From IMG/VR virus record IMGVR_UViG_3300019487_000105, positions 1 to 21,950 of that record: a DNA stretch of 21,950 nucleotides; one strand, 5' to 3'. How positions within the stretch are numbered: the first letter of the stretch is position 1; each line of letters opens with the position of its first letter. A program made the translations under genes and the position numbers. Origin of the DNA: a virus. Of the stretch, positions 32-13,775 are shown in pieces. The notes beneath the pieces are model-generated. The model did not search any database. It had not been told where the DNA came from and saw only the letters and a program-made list of their open reading frames with translations.

Positions 32-267
32 CGCTCGTCATCTTCCGGCTGGACGCTCTGCGCAACCAGGTCCAGGTACCAGGTCTCGTATGACGCATCG
101 AGGTACCAACCATCCCAGGTCCTGATGACTCGGTGATGCGGGTCGTCGCCGACCGGCGTCTCGGGGTCGGGGTCGCCGGCGATGATGGCCACCATGTCGG
201 CTGGGTCGAGCCCATGCTCAGCGGCGTAGTCCGAGATCGTCTGTGCTGCCGGTCCGTTGGTCGTCAT
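28..267 (-). CDS. Hypothetical 79-aa acidic protein
   Basis: I do not recognise the family. The 79-residue product is acidic and has no membrane segment or cysteines. Its N-terminal third (about residues 9-31) could form a short helical element followed by a DPDPETP linker. The C-terminal half is aromatic-rich (TWDGWYL, ETWYLDL). Its ATG overlaps the stop of the upstream zinc-ribbon gene by four bases (264-267), and its own stop overlaps the next start in the same way, so it is the middle of a coupled leftward series. Small non-structural genes next to a terminase are common in phages and often act in regulation or host takeover, but here that is only inference from position. Confidence 0.7.
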   Translation of the reverse strand: MTTNGPAAQTISDYAAEHGLDPADMVAIIAGDPDPETPVGDDPHHRVIRTWDGWYLDASYETWYLDLVAQSVQPEDDER

Positions 268-470
268 CCGTGTCTCCTATGTTTCCCGGGCTTGTCAGCG
301 GGTCGCGCCGTCCGCCCGAACATCTCTCGCATGTGCTTTGTCATGAGAGCGCGGATCTCTCGTGGTAAGGGTGTCGTGAGGTCCCATCCGCATGTCTTGC
401 ATTTGCCATCGGGCAACGGCACCATGCATCGAGGACACCACGGATCTGATGTGACCATCTGGTCTCCCAT
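264..470 (-). CDS. Small zinc-ribbon protein, 68 aa
   Basis: The product has two CxxC knuckles, C12-P-R-C15 and C24-K-T-C27, separated by eight residues, which is the layout of a minimal zinc ribbon. The second half is basic (LPREIRALMTKHMREMF, then an RPADKPGKHRRHG tail), consistent with binding nucleic acid or a protein partner. Two starts are possible: ATG at 470, or ATG at 458 (residue 5), which has a better Shine-Dalgarno (GGGAG five bases upstream). Both keep all four cysteines. Its stop overlaps the next start (ATGA, 264-267). The zinc-ribbon call is secure from the motif. A role such as transcription or HNH-like regulation is not shown. Confidence 0.7.
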   Translation of the reverse strand: MGDQMVTSDPWCPRCMVPLPDGKCKTCGWDLTTPLPREIRALMTKHMREMFGRTARPADKPGKHRRHG

Positions 471-490
471 GATCCCCTGGCTCGTCAGCC

Positions 491-529
491 GCGGGATGGG
501 GGGTCCCGCAGGACCCGGCTAGACCGGGT
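491..529. other. Three overlapping inverted repeats between leftward genes
   Basis: Three G+C-rich hairpins share bases. GCGGGA (491-496) pairs with TCCCGC (504-509). GGGTCC (501-506) pairs with GGACCC (511-516). ACCCGG (513-518) pairs with CCGGGT (524-529). Neighbouring stems share bases and cannot form together, as in an attenuator. They lie in the 68-bp gap downstream of the 111-aa gene and upstream of the zinc-ribbon gene on the minus strand. No strong U-run follows on either strand, so a simple Rho-independent terminator is not supported. They could be an attenuator, an RNA processing site or an operator. Confidence 0.45.
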
Positions 530-538
530 TTCGCCTTG

Positions 539-874
539 TTAGAGGGCCTTGAGAGCGGCCGCGGCGTCATCCAGCAGTGTCGTGCCGTCGGACCGGACCT
601 GGATGTACTCGCGGGCTCCGGAACGCTGCCGGCTCCCGTTGTAGCCCTGGAGATCTCCGATCGACCAGCCGCGGCTGTTGCCGATCTCATAGATGCCCGG
701 CTCGGTGATCAGGTATTCGATGGTGCCGGTAGCGCCCGAACGGCTGAGGTCGCGTCGTACCGCGTGGAGGAACTCTCGACGGATGCCGTATCGGGCATCA
801 GCTCCGAGGACCCGGGCCACGTAGGGCCGCGCCTCGAAGCCCTTGTCAACGGTGAGTGTCTGGCTGGTCGTCAT
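539..874 (-). CDS. Hypothetical 111-aa protein, first gene of leftward operon
   Basis: The family is not recognised. The 111 residues look like a compact soluble domain. A charged N-terminal half (KGFEARPYVARVLGADARYG, then REFLHAVRRDLSRSG) is followed by a beta-rich middle (GTIEYLITEPGIYEIG) and a C-terminal helix ending AAAALKAL. There are no cysteines and no membrane segment. A good Shine-Dalgarno (AGGAG) lies nine bases before the ATG at 874, and a candidate promoter lies about 45 bases further upstream, so this is probably the promoter-proximal gene of the minus-strand operon. The repeat-rich gap after its stop separates it from the two coupled small genes. Confidence 0.75.
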   Translation of the reverse strand: MTTSQTLTVDKGFEARPYVARVLGADARYGIRREFLHAVRRDLSRSGATGTIEYLITEPGIYEIGNSRGWSIGDLQGYNGSRQRSGAREYIQVRSDGTTLLDDAAAALKAL

Positions 875-3510: not shown

Positions 3511-3683
3511 ACGTGCTGGCGAGCCACTACGCGGATGCGGCGTTCGTCCTGTTGTGCACCGGCGCGGCGTTGACGCCATGGCCCTGGCTGGCACTGTTCG
3601 TGGCCGGAGCATATTTCGCCATCTTGGCCTTTGTCGTAGACCGTCGCACACAGACCAGGGCCTCTGACGTGGCATCCGAGTGA
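3507..3683 (+). CDS. Small membrane protein, 58 aa
   Basis: Translating from GTG 3507 gives 58 residues bounded by GTGA overlaps on both sides (3507-3510 and 3680-3683). Residues 11-22 (AAFVLLCTGAAL) form a short hydrophobic stretch. Residues 25-44 (WPWLALFVAGAYFAILAFVV) are a convincing transmembrane helix, with TPWPW making a turn between them. A charged tail follows (DRRTQTRASDVASE). Two hydrophobic spans plus a charged tail resemble a small class II-like holin, but holins normally lie with an endolysin and none is seen here. A membrane-anchoring or superinfection role is equally possible. Confidence 0.65.
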   Translation: MNVLASHYADAAFVLLCTGAALTPWPWLALFVAGAYFAILAFVVDRRTQTRASDVASE

Positions 3684-5890
3684 GCGTGTCCATCCCGTTG
3701 CCCGCCCGACCGGCTACGTCCACAGCGGTCGCTGTGCCTTCGCCAGCGAAAGCCGGGCCGGTCGGGCCGGGTGCTGGGGTGCTGATGACCGAATACCTGC
3801 TGCCGACCGTCCTGGGTACCGAACCCCAAGCGCGGATGGCCAAGGCGCTCAAGCTCGGGATGGAGATCGACTGGGTGCGCGCGGCGGAGCGTGTCATCGC
3901 CGGCAAGATCGCCGGGTGTGGATGGCACCTGGAGGACCCGGACGGGGAGACGATCGATGATGGGTGGACGGGTGACCCGCTCGCTCTTGATGCGTTTCGC
4001 TTGCTCACCCAGCCGCAGGCCGGGTTGCCGTTGCAGGGCGCCGGGGGCATCGGGCGGCGCCAGTCCCGCAGGCAGCAGATGGTCCTTCTCTCCCGGTGGA
4101 TCGGGCTCGCAGGTAACGCGGGTTATTTCCTCGATCTGCTCGATGGGAACGGCTGTCCTCACGCGCTGTGCACGGTCCGTCCCGACCGACTGACCCCGGT
4201 GTGCACCGAGGCCGGGGTGCTGCAGGGGTGGGTGCTGGACAAGCGCCCGGGCCACGCGGGCACCCCGATCGACGTGGAAGAGCTGTTGCTGCTGCAGTTC
4301 CAGCCGCCGGACTCGGGTGTGTTCGGGGTAGGGCTCATCGAGTCGTCCATGGCGAAGGCCATCAACACCGGGCTCATCGACCGCCACTACTCCGCGCTGC
4401 TGTCCTCCGGGGGGCGTCTCAGCGGTATCCTCGCGCCGAGGGAGGGCGCCATCACTGACGACAACGTGTATCACCAACTCGTACGTGACTGGCGAAACGT
4501 GACGGAGCAGCCCGAAGCTGCGCGCCGGCTACAGATCGTGCGTGCCCCGGTCGACTTCACCCCCACTGTCCAGAGCGTCGGGGAGATGCAGATCATAGAC
4601 CTTATGTACCTGAACCGTGACGCATTGCTAGCGCTGTGGGGGGTGCCGCTGTCACAGCTGGGTGGCACGGCCGCGAGTGGCCTCAACTCTGGTGAGACAC
4701 GCAAATATGACGAAGCCTCGCTGTGGCAGTCCGCCGTGCACGACCGGCTCACCGAGTTTCGTGAGACGTTCCAGGCGGGCATCCTGGACCGCTGGGAACC
4801 GGTGCTGGGCTGGGCTCCCACGCTGTGCTTCGACGAGCCGGGTTTCGACGATGAACTGCCCAACTTCGACAAGCTCGCCAAGGCCGCTGGCACGCCGTTG
4901 CGGAACAAGGAGCGGCGCGCCATCATCGGGCTTGACCCCTTCGGGGACGAGCTGCTGGACAACGCCATCTGGATGCCGGTGAACGTGGTCGCGATGGCGA
5001 TGGGTACGACCGAGGACACCGGCAGGGTCCCGGTAGGCGACGTGCCGGGCATCCGGGCGGTGACATCTCGGGGTATCGCGGTGCCGGTCACGCCGGGGGA
5101 TAGCGCACTAACGACTCCCGCAGTCGCGCCGAGAGGCGGGGTACCTGCCGTGGTCGCGGCTAAGGCGGACCTGGGTGTCCGGGCGCTCCGCGAGCAGTGG
5201 CAGGAGCGGCTGACCCCGAAGTTGCGGGACGCGGTACGGGCGGTGCTATCGACGCAGGCGCAGAGCATCTCCGAGCGCATCCGGAAGAACTGGGACACCA
5301 TCCGGCGGCATGGCGCCAGGGACGAGTCGCTGTGGCTCCCGCGGGGTGAGGACGCGGCGATGGACGAGCAGCTGATGAGGGCGCTGCGGCCCGCATTGGC
5401 CGGGATGGCCGAGAGCGTGGAAGCGCACATCAGCGGGGCGTTCGAGGGCACCGGTAAGGCCGACACGCAGCGTCGGGCTGCCCTGGGCGATGCGGATGTC
5501 GGCGCGGTGGAGCACGTCCTGCGTCGCGGTGGGGGCCGTATCACCGACATCAACGGATGGACCAGGGGGGAGATACGCAAGCTCGTGGCTCGAGCCATCG
5601 AGGAGGGCATGAGCCCACAGGAGGCGGGTGACCTCGTGGAGGGTTGGGCTGGGTTCGACGAGTACCGCGCCGAGCGTATCGCCCGGACGGAGCTGATGTT
5701 CGCCTACAACGCGGCAGCGCTGTCCACCTATGGCAGCTATGGCGTGACACAGGTCCAGGCCTCGGACGGTGACCAGGACGAGGTATGCGCCGACCGGGAC
5801 GGTCGGGTGTTCTCCATCCTCGACGCGCAGGGCATCGAGGACCACCCCAACGGGACGCTGGACTGGCTCCCGGTCATAGGCGCGCTGTAA
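3680..5890 (+). CDS. Portal protein fused to MuF-like domain
   Basis: This 736-aa protein joins two head-vertex functions. Residues about 36-440 match HK97-type portals, which form the dodecameric ring at the DNA-entry vertex and dock the terminase: VRAAERVIAGKIAGCGW near 66-82, NAGYFLDLLDGNG near 146-158, VGLIESSMAKA near 217-227 and LLALWGVPLSQLGGTAASG near 316-334. After a Pro/Ala/Gly linker (450-495) comes a long helical region. A MuF-type domain follows, with YRAERIARTELMFAYNAAAL (662-681), DQDEVCADRDGRVF (698-711) and DHPNG (721-725). The usual CRC next to the HP motif is missing (HPNGTLDWLP). The GTG start overlaps the previous stop. ATG at residue 36 is an alternative that would drop an Ala/Pro-rich leader. 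Confidence 0.92.
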   Translation: MSVSIPLPARPATSTAVAVPSPAKAGPVGPGAGVLMTEYLLPTVLGTEPQARMAKALKLGMEIDWVRAAERVIAGKIAGCGWHLEDPDGETIDDGWTGDPLALDAFRLLTQPQAGLPLQGAGGIGRRQSRRQQMVLLSRWIGLAGNAGYFLDLLDGNGCPHALCTVRPDRLTPVCTEAGVLQGWVLDKRPGHAGTPIDVEELLLLQFQPPDSGVFGVGLIESSMAKAINTGLIDRHYSALLSSGGRLSGILAPREGAITDDNVYHQLVRDWRNVTEQPEAARRLQIVRAPVDFTPTVQSVGEMQIIDLMYLNRDALLALWGVPLSQLGGTAASGLNSGETRKYDEASLWQSAVHDRLTEFRETFQAGILDRWEPVLGWAPTLCFDEPGFDDELPNFDKLAKAAGTPLRNKERRAIIGLDPFGDELLDNAIWMPVNVVAMAMGTTEDTGRVPVGDVPGIRAVTSRGIAVPVTPGDSALTTPAVAPRGGVPAVVAAKADLGVRALREQWQERLTPKLRDAVRAVLSTQAQSISERIRKNWDTIRRHGARDESLWLPRGEDAAMDEQLMRALRPALAGMAESVEAHISGAFEGTGKADTQRRAALGDADVGAVEHVLRRGGGRITDINGWTRGEIRKLVARAIEEGMSPQEAGDLVEGWAGFDEYRAERIARTELMFAYNAAALSTYGSYGVTQVQASDGDQDEVCADRDGRVFSILDAQGIEDHPNGTLDWLPVIGAL

Positions 5891-7133: not shown

Positions 7134-8738
7134 GTGGAACCAGCTGTTCTTACCCAGTACCAGGGCAACGTGGAGGGTCTGCTACTCGCGACGCTCTACG
7201 TCGCGGCCGGGCTGGATGATCTCGCCCCGTTGGGGGTGACATCACGGGGAAAGCTCATGTGGCCCGTCGTGGGTGCGGACGACGGCGCGCTGAATGAACG
7301 CATCGACGCGCTGACGCGAGAGATCGCCAACCTGGCCAAGACGCGCGAGGATTCACATCCAGGCGCGAAGGCCGCAGACGGCGCACGCTACGCGGCGGCG
7401 CTTGAGGGGTCTGCTGCTGTCGCAGAAAAGCTCGCAGAACTAGACCGATTGCAGGCTGAAAAGGCCGACACTGCCAGAAAGGTCGCGCTCAAGGCCGAGA
7501 TCGACGCGGCTGTCAAGGCAGCGCTCGCGGACTTGCGAGCGCCATCCCGTGCGGCGACTATCGGTGACGGTCCGGGAGCCAGCCAGCGACTGGCTGAGCG
7601 GGCCATGAAGGCGTCGCCGGTCATGGAAGCCATCTTCGGGGTGGGCTACACACCGGGGACGTTCCTGGGTGCCCTGTCCGCCTACAAGGGCATGCTCTCG
7701 GACGGTATCGACATCGAGGCCATCGCAGCCGGCAAGGCGAAGCTGCAGGAACTGGGTGTCGCCTATCTGGACGCTCCGGCCACCACCGGCAAGGCGACCC
7801 TCGGCACGACCAGCGCGACCGGCGGGTATGTGCTGCCCAACAACCTGGTCGACGCGGTGGTCAAGCCGAATACCCAGAGCGCGGCCTATCGCGACCTGGT
7901 GACGGTGGTGTCGGGCGTGGCCGTCCGCGGTGTCGATCAGCCGTACCGGCTCGGAACGCCCGACCGGATGACGGCCCAGAACTGGGGTGCGACCAAGGAG
8001 AACCTCAACGAGTCCTATGGCAGCTATACCGCGAGCCTGGTCACGTTCGCACGCATCTACGATGTCGGCAAGCAGTACCTCCGGTTCTCCGCTGGTTCTG
8101 CCGAGCGCGATGTCCTCGATGAGTTGGCGAAGGCCGCAGACCTGGCTGAGAACTTCGAGGTCATCGCCGGTCCCGGTACCGGGACGGTCGGCTCGGGGGA
8201 TGCCTGCTTCGGCGTGTATACCTCCCTGAACGCGACACCGGCTTTCCTGGGCTATACGGGAGCCTTCGCGGCTGCGAGCAACTCCACCGTGGCGGGATCA
8301 CTCGCAACGGCCTGCGCACAGTTGATGGGTTCCCTGGCCGGCCGGGATCGGACACCCACCGGCATCGTCGTAGACTCGACGACGTACTTCACGGCGCTGC
8401 GGCAGGGTTCTGACGCGGCGGGTTTTTGGCTCAGTCCTGAGGGTGGTCCGATGGGCTTCACCCGCACGGAGAGCGGTGGGATCGCCTTCTGGGGCGTGCC
8501 CCTGTATTTCGACCGCAACCTCGGCACCAACGCGGCGACGAAGATCGCCATCGCGGCCGAGTGGGACAAGTTCAAGCTCTATCGCGGCATGGAATTCCGC
8601 ATCGACACGACCGATGTCGCGGGGGACCGCTGGGATAAGAACCTGGTTGGCTTCCGGGGCGAGATGGAGCTCGGTTTCAATGCCGAGACGGGGGTCCACG
8701 TCGGCGCTGCTCAGATGCTCACCGCGGTCATCCCGTAG
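7134..8738 (+). CDS. Major capsid protein, HK97 fold
   Basis: The product is 534 aa. Residues about 48-135 are strongly helical and charged (LNERIDALTREIANLAKTRE, then AEKLAELDRLQAEKADTARK), like the HK97 delta domain that acts as a built-in scaffold and is removed by the protease. The shell domain runs from about 195, with GTTSATGGYVLPNNLVDAVV, a long-loop (E-loop) region around 255-300, and a C-terminal half containing TPTGIVVDSTTYFTALRQG and GGIAFWGVPLYFDRNL. The start is GTG 7134 with AAGGGG seven bases upstream, suiting high expression. The position right after the protease supports the call. The first 45 residues before the helix are unusual and could be a longer leader. Confidence 0.93.
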   Translation: MEPAVLTQYQGNVEGLLLATLYVAAGLDDLAPLGVTSRGKLMWPVVGADDGALNERIDALTREIANLAKTREDSHPGAKAADGARYAAALEGSAAVAEKLAELDRLQAEKADTARKVALKAEIDAAVKAALADLRAPSRAATIGDGPGASQRLAERAMKASPVMEAIFGVGYTPGTFLGALSAYKGMLSDGIDIEAIAAGKAKLQELGVAYLDAPATTGKATLGTTSATGGYVLPNNLVDAVVKPNTQSAAYRDLVTVVSGVAVRGVDQPYRLGTPDRMTAQNWGATKENLNESYGSYTASLVTFARIYDVGKQYLRFSAGSAERDVLDELAKAADLAENFEVIAGPGTGTVGSGDACFGVYTSLNATPAFLGYTGAFAAASNSTVAGSLATACAQLMGSLAGRDRTPTGIVVDSTTYFTALRQGSDAAGFWLSPEGGPMGFTRTESGGIAFWGVPLYFDRNLGTNAATKIAIAAEWDKFKLYRGMEFRIDTTDVAGDRWDKNLVGFRGEMELGFNAETGVHVGAAQMLTAVIP

Positions 8739-9508
8739 TGAGCCGCGGGGTGTACTCGACGCAGACGGTGCACCCCGCACCCATCCGGGCTGCCGCGGTT
8801 CGCTCCGGCGGCAGCCCGGACCACGACACGGGGAGCGGGCAGGAGCGAACATCGCTGACTCACGAATGGGCCACACCCGGCGGCCATCGGGCGGTGATGC
8901 GGTACCGCCCGGACACGTCGGATTGGAACACCCTCACGTCGTGCATGTCCCCGGTCGACGAGTACCGCCTGCCGCGCGCCCTGGCAGGTTGGGCTCTCGA
9001 CGTGGGAGCGCACATCGGCGGAGTGAGCGTCCCGCTGTTGCTGGACAACCCTGACATGAGCCTGGTCGCCATCGAGGGTCTGCCCGAGAACGTGGAGCTC
9101 CTGGTGGCCAACCTGGAACGCAACGGCGTGGGTGGCCGCGCCGTCGTCATCAACGCACTGGCTGGTGACGGAGGACCGGGGCGCCTGTTCTACGGACCGG
9201 AGAGCCACCACGAGTTCATCGGTAACGTGGACATCGCGGAGCACGGTCGGGCAGCGGACCTGGAGGGTGTCACGCTGCGGGGCGCGATGCTCCGGCGTGG
9301 ACCGGCGCAGGACGAGCCGTTCGTCTGGGCCAAGATCGATTGCGAGGGTTGCGAGTACGGTTTCCTCGCGAGTCCCGCGCTCGCATCCGTCAGGCGGATC
9401 GTGGGAGAGGTCCACCACGGCATCGCACCCCTCCGGGCGATCCTGGCAGCGACGCATGAAGTGACCGGTGACGCGGACCTGGGAGCGTTCGAGGCGGTGC
9501 TCCGGTGA
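8738..9508 (+). CDS. FkbM-family SAM-dependent methyltransferase
   Basis: The protein has the class I methyltransferase fold in FkbM form: motif I LDVGAHIGG (87-95), an acidic motif II in LVAIEGLPENVELLVANL (109-126), and the FkbM signature KIDCEGCEYGFL (199-210). Family members usually O-methylate sugars or sugar-bearing products using S-adenosylmethionine. GTG 8738 shares one base with the capsid stop (TAGTG), so it is translated directly behind the capsid gene. The first 45 residues are low-complexity and poorly conserved-looking, so a later start is possible. The next three large genes are glycosyltransferases, which points to methylation of a sugar they add. Ordinary phages have no such gene at this place. 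Confidence 0.88.
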   Translation: MSRGVYSTQTVHPAPIRAAAVRSGGSPDHDTGSGQERTSLTHEWATPGGHRAVMRYRPDTSDWNTLTSCMSPVDEYRLPRALAGWALDVGAHIGGVSVPLLLDNPDMSLVAIEGLPENVELLVANLERNGVGGRAVVINALAGDGGPGRLFYGPESHHEFIGNVDIAEHGRAADLEGVTLRGAMLRRGPAQDEPFVWAKIDCEGCEYGFLASPALASVRRIVGEVHHGIAPLRAILAATHEVTGDADLGAFEAVLR

Positions 9509-10533
9509 ACCTGTTGCTGATGCTCGCGCACTCCATCGCCGAGTACGACGACGTGCGCATGTTCTCGGACGCGGGATATGACGTGTTCAGCATCGGCGCG
9601 TACGCCGACCCCGTGCATCCGGGCGACGACAAGCGTCCCCCATTGCCGGATGCGCCGCGCCACCCGGAGCTGGCTGCGCTGGTCCCGGACCAGATGAGGG
9701 CCAAGGAATACCTGCCGGATGATCTGATCGACTGGGCGGACGTGATCATCTGTCACCACTACCTGCGGGAGTGGGTCATGCCGCAGTGGGGCAGGATCAA
9801 GCACAAGCGCGTGGTGTGGCGCACCTGTGGCCAGAGCGACTTCGCACTCGAAGACGAGATGAAGCGCCTGCGCCGGGAGGGTCTGGTGATCGTGCGCTAC
9901 TCACCGGCCGAGGGGTGGTTCTTTCGGGAGTCCGGGCACTGGGCGGGTTGTGACGCCACGATCAGGTTCGGCAAGTACCCGACGGACTACCGGCCGTGGG
10001 TCGGTGACGGTATCTGGGTCGGTAACGTGACGCAGAACATGGCCGGTCGTGGTGAATGGGTAGGCCGGTCATACTGGGAGCGGGCGACCGCTGACCTGCC
10101 TACCCGCATGGCCGGTCCGGGCTCGGAGCAGATGGGCGGGTGCGGCACGCTCCCGTACGAGGAGCTGCTGCGGTACCTGCGCCGGACTCGGGTTTACCTG
10201 TACACCGGCACCCACCCCGCACCGTACACCCTAGGGCTCATCGAGGCGTTGATGTCGGGGACCCCCGTGGTGTCCATCGGGCGGCACGACTGGATGGGGC
10301 CGGATGCCCTGTTCGAGGCGGACAAGATAGCGCCGATCGCGGCACTCTCGCCCGAGGACGCTGCGCGGCACCTGCGGGGCTTGCTGGGCGACGAGGCGCT
10401 GGCCCGATACGTCGGTCAGGAGGGGCGAGATCGGGCGCTCGAGCTGTTCGACGTGGCCACGGTGACCGAGGACTGGGTACGACTGTTGGGTGGCGTACCA
10501 TCCCCAGATACGGCGGTGGGGATGCTAGCGTGA
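9505..10533 (+). CDS. GT-B-type glycosyltransferase 1
   Basis: The 342-aa product has a GT-B outline. An N-terminal Rossmann half starts MNLLLMLAHSIAEYDDVRMF and includes WADVIICHHYLREWV (77-91), the usual acceptor-side beta strand. The C-terminal donor-binding half has YLYTGTHPAPYTLGLIEALM (231-250) then SGTPVVSIG. That is the GT4-family sugar-nucleotide motif, keeping the second Glu (E247) but with Ala in place of the first Glu of EX7E. It probably transfers a hexose from a host UDP- or GDP-sugar, but the donor cannot be told. The GTG start overlaps the methyltransferase stop (GTGA, 9505-9508) and its stop overlaps the next GTG in the same way. Confidence 0.82.
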   Translation: MNLLLMLAHSIAEYDDVRMFSDAGYDVFSIGAYADPVHPGDDKRPPLPDAPRHPELAALVPDQMRAKEYLPDDLIDWADVIICHHYLREWVMPQWGRIKHKRVVWRTCGQSDFALEDEMKRLRREGLVIVRYSPAEGWFFRESGHWAGCDATIRFGKYPTDYRPWVGDGIWVGNVTQNMAGRGEWVGRSYWERATADLPTRMAGPGSEQMGGCGTLPYEELLRYLRRTRVYLYTGTHPAPYTLGLIEALMSGTPVVSIGRHDWMGPDALFEADKIAPIAALSPEDAARHLRGLLGDEALARYVGQEGRDRALELFDVATVTEDWVRLLGGVPSPDTAVGMLA

Positions 10534-11549
10534 ACGTCCTCATCGATCGCCACCACGCGGGGCTGTTCCGGTCGCTCCAGCTCCTGGGCGAGCGGCTGGG
10601 CTGGGATGTCTGGACACCGCTCGGGATGGAGTGGTTCGACGAGGGGTACTGGGGCTTCGGGCGCACGCACTTCGGACGCGAGCTCGCCGACCAGTACCTG
10701 CACCCCTCGCTGGGCATCTGGGCGCAGCCGTCACCTGGGCGCTACGTCATGCACGACGACGAGTTCCCGACAGTGCCCATCCAGGGTGTGACCCTAGACA
10801 CGGCACGCAGGATCGGTTGGGACATCGTCATGGCGACCGTGCAGGAGGATCAGGAGGGGTTCGCCCGGTTCGCTCGGGAGGTAGGCGCTACCTATGTCTA
10901 CCAGGTCGGCAACACCGGCCAACAGGTGGACTGGACGCTGGACCCGCTGGCGCTAGTGTCCGCGGAGAACGCCATCGAAGGGCGCGGCGTCCGGTATCAC
11001 CAGATGATGGACCAGAGCTTCCGCTGGCGCGACCCGCGGGACGCGGACCACCTGCGGATAAGCTCGTTCGTGAACCTCATGCCGCGCATCCAGTGCTGGC
11101 CATGGCTGCAACGTGCGATGGAGGTCGGACGGGGGTCGACCTTCCGGGTCTACGGTACCGACTGTCCAGATGGCACCATCAAACCGGCCAGCCTGATCGC
11201 AGACCTCATGGCGCGTTCGGGTTGGGGATGGCACGACAAGATCACCGGCGACGGATTCGGACACGTCATCCACGGTTGGGCGGCCGTCGGACGACCGCTG
11301 GTCGGGCACGCCAGGCACTACGCGGGCAAGTTGGCCGAGCCGTTCTGGCAGGATGGAGAGACGTGTATCGATCTGGACCGTCACGAGCCGGACGAGGCGG
11401 TCGAGATCATCCGGACGACCTCACGCGAACGGCACGCGCAGATGTGCGCCGCGATCCGGGCGGTATACGACCGGCTGGTCGACACCGAAGCAGAGGTCGA
11501 GGCGATCCGGGTGGTGTTCCAGGGTGCCGACCGGTCGGTGCTGGTGTGA
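10530..11549 (+). CDS. GT-B-like glycosyltransferase 2
   Basis: I chose GTG 10530 because it gives the GTGA overlap with the previous gene. An upstream in-frame start (10140) would read through the previous gene in a shadow frame. The product is 339 aa and starts VNVLIDRHHAGLFRSLQLLG, a Rossmann strand-loop-helix with GLFRSL in the position of the glycine-rich loop. The C-terminal half has FGHVIHGWAAVGRPLVGHA (243-261) and DGETCIDLDRHEPDEA (275-290). These match in position the donor-site helix and the strand after it in GT-B enzymes. No EX7E is present, so it is a divergent transferase or an inactive partner of a neighbour. The call rests on fold-like pattern and context. Confidence 0.7.
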   Translation: MNVLIDRHHAGLFRSLQLLGERLGWDVWTPLGMEWFDEGYWGFGRTHFGRELADQYLHPSLGIWAQPSPGRYVMHDDEFPTVPIQGVTLDTARRIGWDIVMATVQEDQEGFARFAREVGATYVYQVGNTGQQVDWTLDPLALVSAENAIEGRGVRYHQMMDQSFRWRDPRDADHLRISSFVNLMPRIQCWPWLQRAMEVGRGSTFRVYGTDCPDGTIKPASLIADLMARSGWGWHDKITGDGFGHVIHGWAAVGRPLVGHARHYAGKLAEPFWQDGETCIDLDRHEPDEAVEIIRTTSRERHAQMCAAIRAVYDRLVDTEAEVEAIRVVFQGADRSVLV

Positions 11550-11638
11550 GGTCGCTGGTGCTGCCGGCGGTCGGTCTGGTGCTGGCGATCGCGTATCTGT
11601 GGATCTGCGACACGACCTTGCGGAGCGTGGGACCGTGA
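11546..11638 (+). CDS. 30-residue single-span membrane peptide
   Basis: A GTG at 11546 overlaps the glycosyltransferase 2 stop (GTGA). The frame ends at TGA 11636-11638, itself overlapped by the next GTG at 11635. The peptide starts VRSLVLPAVGLVLAIAYLWI and ends CDTTLRSVGP. Residues 4-20 are a clear transmembrane helix preceded by one arginine, suggesting an N-in orientation. Precise stop/start overlap at both ends in the pattern used by all neighbours is the main evidence that it is real. It could anchor the glycosyltransferase complex to the membrane, where lipid-linked or nucleotide sugars are available. That function is inference. Confidence 0.6.
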   Translation: MRSLVLPAVGLVLAIAYLWICDTTLRSVGP

Positions 11639-13056
11639 GCAGGGCGGCGCGGAGGGCCGCGGTACGTTCACGGGGAGCCCGAGGGGTCGGCTCTCCTGCC
11701 ACGCTGACCCCCGGGATGGTCCCGGAGCAGGATACGCTGCCTCCGACCGGCGGGCTGCGTCTGCTCGTGCTGGGCGACACGGCGGGTACGGGGTTCGGCA
11801 CGGTGACCCGTGACCTGGGTTCGGCGATGGCCCGCCGGGGCATCGATCTGCGGCTGCTGTCCATGAACGAGGACGCCGGCTTCGCCATCGACCCAGCGTG
11901 GCCACAGGGGCTCCGCGAGCGGACCGTGCTGCTGGGTGTCCCGGACGGCTGGATGGGGGTCGATGGACCGGCCGCGGCGTCCATCGTGTCCAAGGCCCTG
12001 GGGGTGTTCAGCGGGCTGACGGTCCCTGGTTGGGTGCCTGAGGTGGTCCTCATCATCGGTGACCACGCCTCGCTGGAGATGAGCCCGTGGTGGAAGCTGC
12101 TTCCGAAGCACCTACCTGCATTCGTCTATTGCCCGATCGAGGGCATCGATCTGCCGCCGAGCTGGGCGAAGCTGTGGGAACGGATCAGGCCGGTCGCCAT
12201 GTGCCGCTTCGGGGCGGACCAGATCGAGGCTGTGACCGGAGAACGGCCCCCGATGGTCTACCACGGCATCGACCCGGACAGCTTCTGGCCGGTGACGGGA
12301 GCGAGGCCGCTCGTCCTCCGGACACCGAAGGGGCTCGTGACCCTGCGCTCGCGTGCCGAGTGCCGGGCGTTCCTGGGGTGGCCGAAGGCTTCCACCATCC
12401 TGTTCCGGGCGGATCGGCTCATGCCCCGCAAGGCGTACCCGGCGATGTTCCGGGCGCTCGCACCGGTCCTGGCCCGTCACCCCGATGTGGTGCTGTACCT
12501 GCATTGCCGGACGGTAGACCAGGGTGGCAACCTGTGGCATGAAGCCAGTAAATACCCGGAACACGTCCGGTCGCGCATCGGCACCACCGGTTTTCACGAT
12601 GCCGGGGGTGGTGTCCCGCGCGAGCTGCTGACCTGCATGTACAACGCGGCGGACCTTTACATCAGCACGTCAGCGGAGGGGTTCGGGCTCACCGTCGCGG
12701 AGTCTCTGGCGTGTGGCACCCCCGCGGTAGCACTCGACTACAGCTCGCTCCCCGAAGTGGTCGGTCCCGCGGGGGTGCTGGTCCCTGAGTACGCGCTCAT
12801 CGACAACATCTATTCGTACTTTTGGGCCATCCCTAAGGGCGACGGCTACACGCATGCGGTGGAGCGGTTGGTGACCGACCCGGCAGAGCGACGAAGGCTT
12901 GGCATGCTCGGACCGGGGCACGTCGCGCAGTTCAGCTGGGAGATGGCCGCAGAGCGGTTCGAGGCCATCCTGACCGGTGCTCCCGTCCCGGCGCCGGGGC
13001 CGGTCCCACCAGCGCGTCGGCTGGCGGCACTCGGACTCGTGGAGGCGCGGGCATGA
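11635..13056 (+). CDS. GT4-family glycosyltransferase 3
   Basis: From GTG 11635 (GTGA overlap with the small membrane gene) the product is 473 aa. After a basic, probably disordered leader of about 38 residues comes a GT-B fold. The N-terminal Rossmann domain starts LRLLVLGDTAGTGFGTVTRD (41-60). The C-terminal domain has YLHCRTVDQGGN (288-299), MYNAADLYISTSAEGFGLTV (335-354) and ACGTPAVALDYSSLPEVVG. The EX7E motif is intact (E348 and E356), so this is the best candidate for an active retaining enzyme in the set. The C-terminus is Pro/Ala-rich. The stop overlaps the connector start (ATGA, 13053-13056). ATG 11716 is an alternative start that would shorten the leader. Confidence 0.88.
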   Translation: MSRAARRAAVRSRGARGVGSPATLTPGMVPEQDTLPPTGGLRLLVLGDTAGTGFGTVTRDLGSAMARRGIDLRLLSMNEDAGFAIDPAWPQGLRERTVLLGVPDGWMGVDGPAAASIVSKALGVFSGLTVPGWVPEVVLIIGDHASLEMSPWWKLLPKHLPAFVYCPIEGIDLPPSWAKLWERIRPVAMCRFGADQIEAVTGERPPMVYHGIDPDSFWPVTGARPLVLRTPKGLVTLRSRAECRAFLGWPKASTILFRADRLMPRKAYPAMFRALAPVLARHPDVVLYLHCRTVDQGGNLWHEASKYPEHVRSRIGTTGFHDAGGGVPRELLTCMYNAADLYISTSAEGFGLTVAESLACGTPAVALDYSSLPEVVGPAGVLVPEYALIDNIYSYFWAIPKGDGYTHAVERLVTDPAERRRLGMLGPGHVAQFSWEMAAERFEAILTGAPVPAPGPVPPARRLAALGLVEARA

Positions 13057-13775
13057 ACCTCATCGTGACCTCGGACCAGGTGCGTGACTACCTGAAGCTC
13101 AACACACCCGGCTCGACTTCCCAATACAGCGACCAGACCATCGGTAGCAACATCCGGGCTGCGCAGTCGTACCTTGAGTCCGAATGCCATCGCTATTTCC
13201 ACGACCATCCAGCCGTGACGTGGGCACGGACCACGCTATTGCAGGCGCAGGTGTCCATCCCCGGTTTCCGGTCCATCACCAGCGCCACCTGGGGCGGCGT
13301 CGCACTCTCCGTGGCTGTCCCCGGTGATGGCAACACATCACCGAGCGCCTGGGGGATCTGGGAAGCTTCGCCCGGAGTGGAGGACGGTTCTCGGCTGATA
13401 GTGGCGCTGCAGTTCCGGCCGTGGCGCGTGGACAACGACCGGCCGTGGTATTACGCGGACTCGCGGTGGTGGGATAAGCTTCTGGATAGCCCGTTCTTCC
13501 CCGGCAACTGGGGCGGGGGTTACGCCTGGACATCGATGCCGAACGACCTGGTGATCGTCGGGAACGGGGGGTATGCCGCGGGCACCGAACCGGAGACGCT
13601 GAAGCACACCGTCAAGGTCCTGGCGGCCTGGTACACGATGCGGCCGGCGTCCATCCTCGCGACCGTCGCGGTGACGCCACAGGGCAGTGTCCTGAGTTAC
13701 GCGGACCTACCGCCTGAAGTGCGCGAATTCATCGTGGATTGGAAGATCGGTGAGCAGGTGGCTAGCGTCGGATGA
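13053..13775 (+). CDS. Head-tail connector / head completion protein
   Basis: The 240-aa product begins with MNLIVTSDQVRDYLKL and a helical segment, IGSNIRAAQSYLESECHRYF. This pattern is typical of the gp6/gp15-like adaptor family that binds below the portal after packaging. The middle (about 55-180) is beta- and Trp-rich (FRPWRVDNDRPWYYADSRWW), longer than the usual 100-120 residue adaptor. The C-terminal helices (TLKHTVKVLAAWYTMRPAS, then LPPEVREFIVDWKIG) resemble the end of such connectors. It is followed by gp10-like and terminator genes, which fits the neck order. The family call is moderately sure. The large insertion is unusual. Confidence 0.75.
   Translation: MNLIVTSDQVRDYLKLNTPGSTSQYSDQTIGSNIRAAQSYLESECHRYFHDHPAVTWARTTLLQAQVSIPGFRSITSATWGGVALSVAVPGDGNTSPSAWGIWEASPGVEDGSRLIVALQFRPWRVDNDRPWYYADSRWWDKLLDSPFFPGNWGGGYAWTSMPNDLVIVGNGGYAAGTEPETLKHTVKVLAAWYTMRPASILATVAVTPQGSVLSYADLPPEVREFIVDWKIGEQVASVG

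Follow-up and report, generated by a model that had tools for sequence, protein, structure and literature searches.

Glycosyltransferases (GTs) encoded by phages glycosylate capsid and tail-tube proteins in mycobacteriophages (PMC12363180, PMC12619734), with virion glycosylation of Che8, Corndog and Myrna attributed to Freeman 2023 as cited in both papers. In the chlorovirus PBCV-1, virus enzymes build a conserved glycan core on the capsid protein in a stepwise manner (PMC7826918). Here we describe a cassette of three GTs, an FkbM-type methyltransferase and a small hydrophobic peptide located between the capsid and neck genes of the IMG/VR virus record IMGVR_UViG_3300019487_000105, of which all 21,950 bases analysed are referred to as the window. 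One of the GTs, GT3, was found in this slot in every related contig that spans it, while its partners are exchanged between viruses. On balance we favour the view that the slot is a virion-glycosylation locus with a putative acceptor, and that the heads of these phages are probably coated with a variable glycan of the phage's own making, whose target is likewise putative.

The window, probably a fragment, looks like the left arm of a tailed-phage genome that includes a tape-measure gene. Its gene order is terminase small and large subunits, portal-MuF, a gene in the protease/scaffold position, HK97 capsid, the cassette, neck, tail completion, a tube gene called putative by its position, and tape measure. 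The cassette and its borders are composed as follows:

7134–8738, forward strand: major capsid protein (MCP) of HK97 type, upstream border; PF05065 at 5.5e-16, phrog_10 major head protein at 8e-21
8738–9508, forward strand: FkbM-type S-adenosylmethionine (SAM) methyltransferase, exchangeable part; GTG start, PF05050 at 8.2e-7, above the cut-off
9505–10533, forward strand: GT1, glycosyltransferase of GT-B type, exchangeable part; PF13524 at 2.4e-9
10530–11549, forward strand: GT2, glycosyltransferase of GT-B type without a Pfam family, exchangeable part; identified with AlphaFold2 and Foldseek
11546–11638, forward strand: hydrophobic peptide of 30 residues; GTG start, sequence MRSLVLPAVGLVLAIAYLWICDTTLRSVGP, 4-base overlap with both GT2 and GT3
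11635–13056, forward strand: GT3, GT-B glycosyltransferase of the GT4 family, conserved core enzyme; PF13692/PF00534 at 2e-11, phrog_2170
13053–13775, forward strand: neck protein or head-tail adaptor, downstream border; ATG start, phrog_442 at 1.5e-4, 71% identical in the nearest relative

The capsid gene stops with TAG at 8736–8738, and from this stop to the neck start each start overlaps the preceding stop by 1–4 bases. The coupled, gap-free run between capsid and connector genes that an earlier note on this DNA had described is therefore present throughout, from 8738 to 13053. For GT3, the mechanical open reading frame start at 11353 was too long and the GTG at 11635 was taken instead. The overlapping reading frames within the head operon indicate that the cassette is translated together with the head genes.

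The conservation of this arrangement was evaluated in related contigs. In the nearest relative, L002, the slot holds the same four enzymes; identities are 68% for the capsid, 74% for GT3, 51% for GT1, 39% for FkbM and 34% for GT2. Scans with GT1 and GT2 returned dozens of further contigs with the same gene order and the arrangement is accordingly not due to chance. As these scans are biased towards the cassette, the scan of IMG/VR was repeated with the capsid alone. This resulted in 80 contigs, 41 of which span from the capsid to the neck or next structural genes; GT3 occupied the slot in all 41 and the full set of four enzymes was found in 32. When GT3 was the query, 75 of the 80 best matches had the neck gene after it, the other five being two contig ends, two in which the tail-completion gene that comes next was alone recognised and one in which portal and protease were the next genes detected. 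A neck scan, built on 8 close sequences since a 25-sequence alignment was too divergent, yielded 38 contigs with at least 277 bases upstream. GT3 was directly seen in 36 of these, and in the remaining two an overlap between the GT3 and neck frames makes them appear in reversed order (verified in one of the two). The comparison of related phages proposed in the earlier note thus ties the cassette to the head genes more strongly than its author could know. The same counts contradict its description of the cassette as inserted: there was no recent insertion, and the cassette is a core part of the virus group.

All nine spanning contigs that lack the full set retain GT3. One of them (L157) is without FkbM only, while the other eight are without FkbM, GT1 and GT2. 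Replacement partners in the slots examined included GT-A family 2 enzymes, small methyltransferases, an NDP-sugar (nucleoside diphosphate sugar) epimerase/dehydratase, a MobA-like nucleotidyltransferase, a rhamnosyltransferase-like protein and Asn synthase. In L136 (10344–17146, the contig ending before the neck gene), the stretch from capsid to GT3 holds a GT-A enzyme, a GNAT acetyltransferase, a short-chain dehydrogenase and 3-oxoacyl-ACP (acyl carrier protein) synthase III, which suggests an acylated sugar. Some relatives (L049, L105 and L150) carry two FkbM genes in the slot.

Pairwise distances were compared across the 32 contigs with all genes in order to determine which cassette genes track the head genes. 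Distances of GT3 correlated with those of the capsid (r 0.83), neck (r 0.88) and protease (r 0.79), in comparison to 0.76–0.82 among the head genes themselves. Correlations with the head genes were only 0.16 for FkbM, 0.36 for GT1 and 0.47 for GT2, even though it is these very genes that separate GT3 from the capsid gene. Simple linkage does not therefore explain why GT3 tracks the head proteins. Mantel tests reached the permutation floor (p <= 0.0005) for GT3 and every head gene, and the weak correlations were also non-zero. GT1, GT2 and FkbM are in fact exchanged between viruses while GT3 stays.

The enzyme identities given in the earlier note, namely an FkbM methyltransferase and three GT-B-like glycosyltransferases, proved right by Pfam and by fold. 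The FkbM protein scored 29.7 bits against a Pfam cut-off of 22.7 for PF05050 and has the SAM-binding motifs DVGAHIG and KIDCEGCE, which are largely common to L002 (DIGAHIG there). FkbM enzymes methylate sugars and the protein is predicted from its sequence to be a sugar O-methylase. For GT1, 33 homologues were aligned, and its profile matches TarM and HepE in the PDB. GT2 had no Pfam match; its AlphaFold2 model (predicted local distance difference test, pLDDT, 92.5) gave HepE (4xsu) as the best Foldseek match at E 4.9e-9, with 96 PDB matches at E<=0.001. The modelled GT2 is accordingly of GT-B fold, having two Rossmann-like domains that match solved enzymes. GT3 is a GT-B enzyme of GT4 type as it combines a Glycos_transf_1 domain, an EX7E motif in which E348 and E356 are invariant (36 homologues aligned) and a GT-B fold; the closest PDB fold to its model (pLDDT 86.9) is a glycosyltransferase of Chlorella virus NY2A (3oy2, E 4.9e-16). 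The 30-residue peptide is poorly conserved. It is absent from L002 and has an analogue at the same spot in one virus group alone, L020/L021, distant relatives of the window in which a hydrophobic peptide of 33 residues lies between GT2 and GT3 (9038–9139). The window peptide may possibly be a membrane anchor, which we propose with low confidence.

Comparison with described systems sets this locus apart. Searches against phages returned no match for the whole window (megablast) or for the capsid, neck, GT1 and GT2 (tblastn). As in Che8, Corndog and Myrna, the GTs are phage-encoded, and the glycans in those phages are proposed to be on the capsid (and tail tube). Unlike in the mycobacteriophages, GT3 of the window group is fixed between capsid and neck and in most relatives is accompanied by a multi-enzyme set and a methylase. 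The host is moreover probably not a mycobacterium, and GT1–GT3 gave no tblastn match of the Che8 gp110, Corndog gp38 or Myrna GT type in 50,697 phage records, in which no mycobacteriophage was matched and the presence of those three records was unchecked. The chloroviruses share with the window virus-encoded sugar transferases, putatively acting stepwise in the window, and the nearest solved fold to GT3, at roughly 15% identity with 3oy2, but they are viruses of eukaryotic algae with N-glycans and multidomain enzymes. In phage serotype conversion, gtrABC cassettes encode the GtrA flippase and the bactoprenol glucosyltransferase GtrB beside a Gtr. These resemble the window cassette in that a few phage-borne glycan genes act together. 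They differ from it in that the window genes are located in the head operon and encode cytoplasmic-type GT-B enzymes as opposed to a membrane Gtr; neither GtrA nor GtrB was found between 8738 and 13056 by gene reading and Pfam analysis of the four enzymes.

The closest parallel in position is Pontimonas phage phiPsal1 (MG835450), with the order MCP-GT4-methyltransferase-GT2-neck. The same slot is used, and the GT4 of this phage is distantly related to GT3 (27% identity). The partners are however a GT-A family 2 enzyme and a reversed SAM methyltransferase, and its capsid and neck are not recognisably related by tblastn, the neck having been found by profile only. In Microcystis phage Mae-JY09 a GT gene separates the capsid gene from that of the head-tail adaptor. 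Among metagenomic contigs, L060 has the order scaffold-MCP-GT3-GT3-GT1-GT2, L039 a kit between MCP and tail fibre, and L089 GT1-GT2 adjoining the terminase. Unrelated phages thus place similar enzymes in or near the capsid-neck slot, which we count in favour of virion glycosylation along with the mycobacteriophage precedent.

If the locus acts on the virion, GT3 as the fixed enzyme would most likely use a host NDP-sugar to place the first sugar on a head protein, for which the major capsid protein is the most likely candidate. GT1 and GT2 would then lengthen the chain and FkbM may cap a hydroxyl with a methyl group, this order being our proposal. The methylated glycan put forward in the earlier note is a reasonable expectation, the enzymes being as it named them. 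Viruses would consequently differ in the outer glycans on a common core, much like at a serotype locus. The fuller version, in which one head-linked GT primes the capsid protein, outer-sugar enzymes are swapped by recombination and related virions bear differently methylated or otherwise decorated glycans, is put forward tentatively and we hold it with distinctly less confidence than the assignment of the locus to the virion.

Several observations weigh against a virion target. Position in the head operon suggests late co-expression and not a target, linkage alone could make GT3 track the head genes although its neighbours do not, and the search of phage records described above connected GT1–GT3 to no mycobacteriophage, with the same proviso on Che8, Corndog and Myrna. 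L116 (1879–8148), whose capsid gene is 63% identical, has a tape-measure-like gene and an integrase and shows neither a GT nor a neck gene; it is possibly a satellite or degraded prophage. An unrelated AT-rich lineage (35–38% GC; L051, L052, L054, L056, L058 and L059) furthermore has a relative of this kit, ordered GT3-GT1-(FkbM, a different gene or nothing)-GT2, in the interval that separates DNA polymerase from UvsX, and a DNA methyltransferase gene comes next. This shows the kit to be portable, since its site there is the replication region, far from head genes. The earlier note had held that such genes located far from structural genes and modifying host glycans would speak against its proposal; this lineage bears that out in part, namely for the distant location.

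Phage GTs that alter host surface glycans are well known. The main rival is that the cassette acts on the host envelope in the course of infection or lysogeny, perhaps on a receptor glycan, so that other phages are excluded, the late operon serving for expression only. We consider this improbable, though it accounts for several features: precedent exists (PMC10202952), the outer enzymes are exchanged between viruses, a small membrane peptide occurs in the window and one other virus group, and GT3 is similar to GT4 enzymes that act on lipids, PimB' and PimA among them. Expression from the head operon would however come late for a role in exclusion, the slot yielded no gene for a flippase (GtrA), a GtrB-like enzyme or a polymerase, and only 1 of the 13 related records tested gave an integrase. 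The presence of GT3 in all spanning contigs and its co-variation with head proteins are likewise unexpected for a moron acting on the host surface.

Less probable still is glycosylation of a non-capsid protein of the virion, with the tail tube, neck and tail fibre as examples. In mycobacteriophages, glycans are present on tail-tube as well as capsid subunits (PMC12619734), GT3 tracks the neck gene most closely and the kit of L039 adjoins a tail-fibre gene. The weaker correlation of GT3 with the tail tube (r 0.57) argues against this reading, as does the location of the slot beside the capsid gene in several lineages that are not related. Modification of phage DNA, by glycosylation of hypermodified bases, is unlikely for the window group and we give it very little credence. 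It draws on the polymerase-UvsX position of the AT-rich kit near a DNA methyltransferase and on a distant fold match of GT2 to T4 alpha-glucosyltransferase (1xv5). The window clade, on the other hand, has its kit in the head operon and not in the replication region, FkbM enzymes act on sugars, and a thymidylate-synthase-like base maker (PF00303) was found in only 1 of 16 related records; PF12851 (Tet_JBP) was found in 0 of 18 records, a search in which the control was silent and the records may be fragments. That the genes are mere passengers at a site which tolerates insertions, without a set function for the virion, is scarcely credible since, although gene content of the slot varies, GT3 is never missing from spanning contigs, its catalytic residues are invariant and overlapping reading frames keep the run tightly packed.

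The host was investigated through related records and bacterial genomes. The earlier note had assumed an actinophage, an assumption that does not fit the findings: WhiB was found in none of 16 related records, and strong capsid matches in bacterial genomes were confined to metagenome-assembled genomes (MAGs) of Chloroflexota, the phylum that was searched in depth while the rest were covered by one pattern scan. A capsid scan of bacterial genomes with a two-sequence alignment returned nothing; with a 32-sequence alignment it returned two Chloroflexota MAG contigs. The cellular genes on L162 are consistent with its bin. The MAG of L161 holds a second mnmA, only 50% identical to that on L161, which may therefore be misbinned and its host evidence is weakened. 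Chloroflexota are thus weakly indicated and proposed as hosts tentatively. On another Chloroflexota MAG contig, L261 (G083:C9), an HNH endonuclease gene (147–719, reverse strand) directly follows a related capsid gene and the contig ends there. Elsewhere in the window, positions 3680–5890 encode a protein of 736 residues in which portal and MuF-like domains are fused (PF04860 and PF04233), and the matching L002 sequence is split into two frames.

While virion glycosylation is already known from mycobacteriophages, what is new is that throughout a large uncultured group a GT tied to the head genes is universal and its partners can be exchanged. These viruses, uncultured phages of soil and sediment, appear to depend on virion glycosylation, with one enzyme kept as constantly as the capsid and the outer sugars variable. 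If true, the locus would provide a set of new enzymes for sugar transfer whose predicted acceptor is a protein, and a tractable way to test what phages gain from a coated head, be it protection, environmental binding or escape from predators or host defences.

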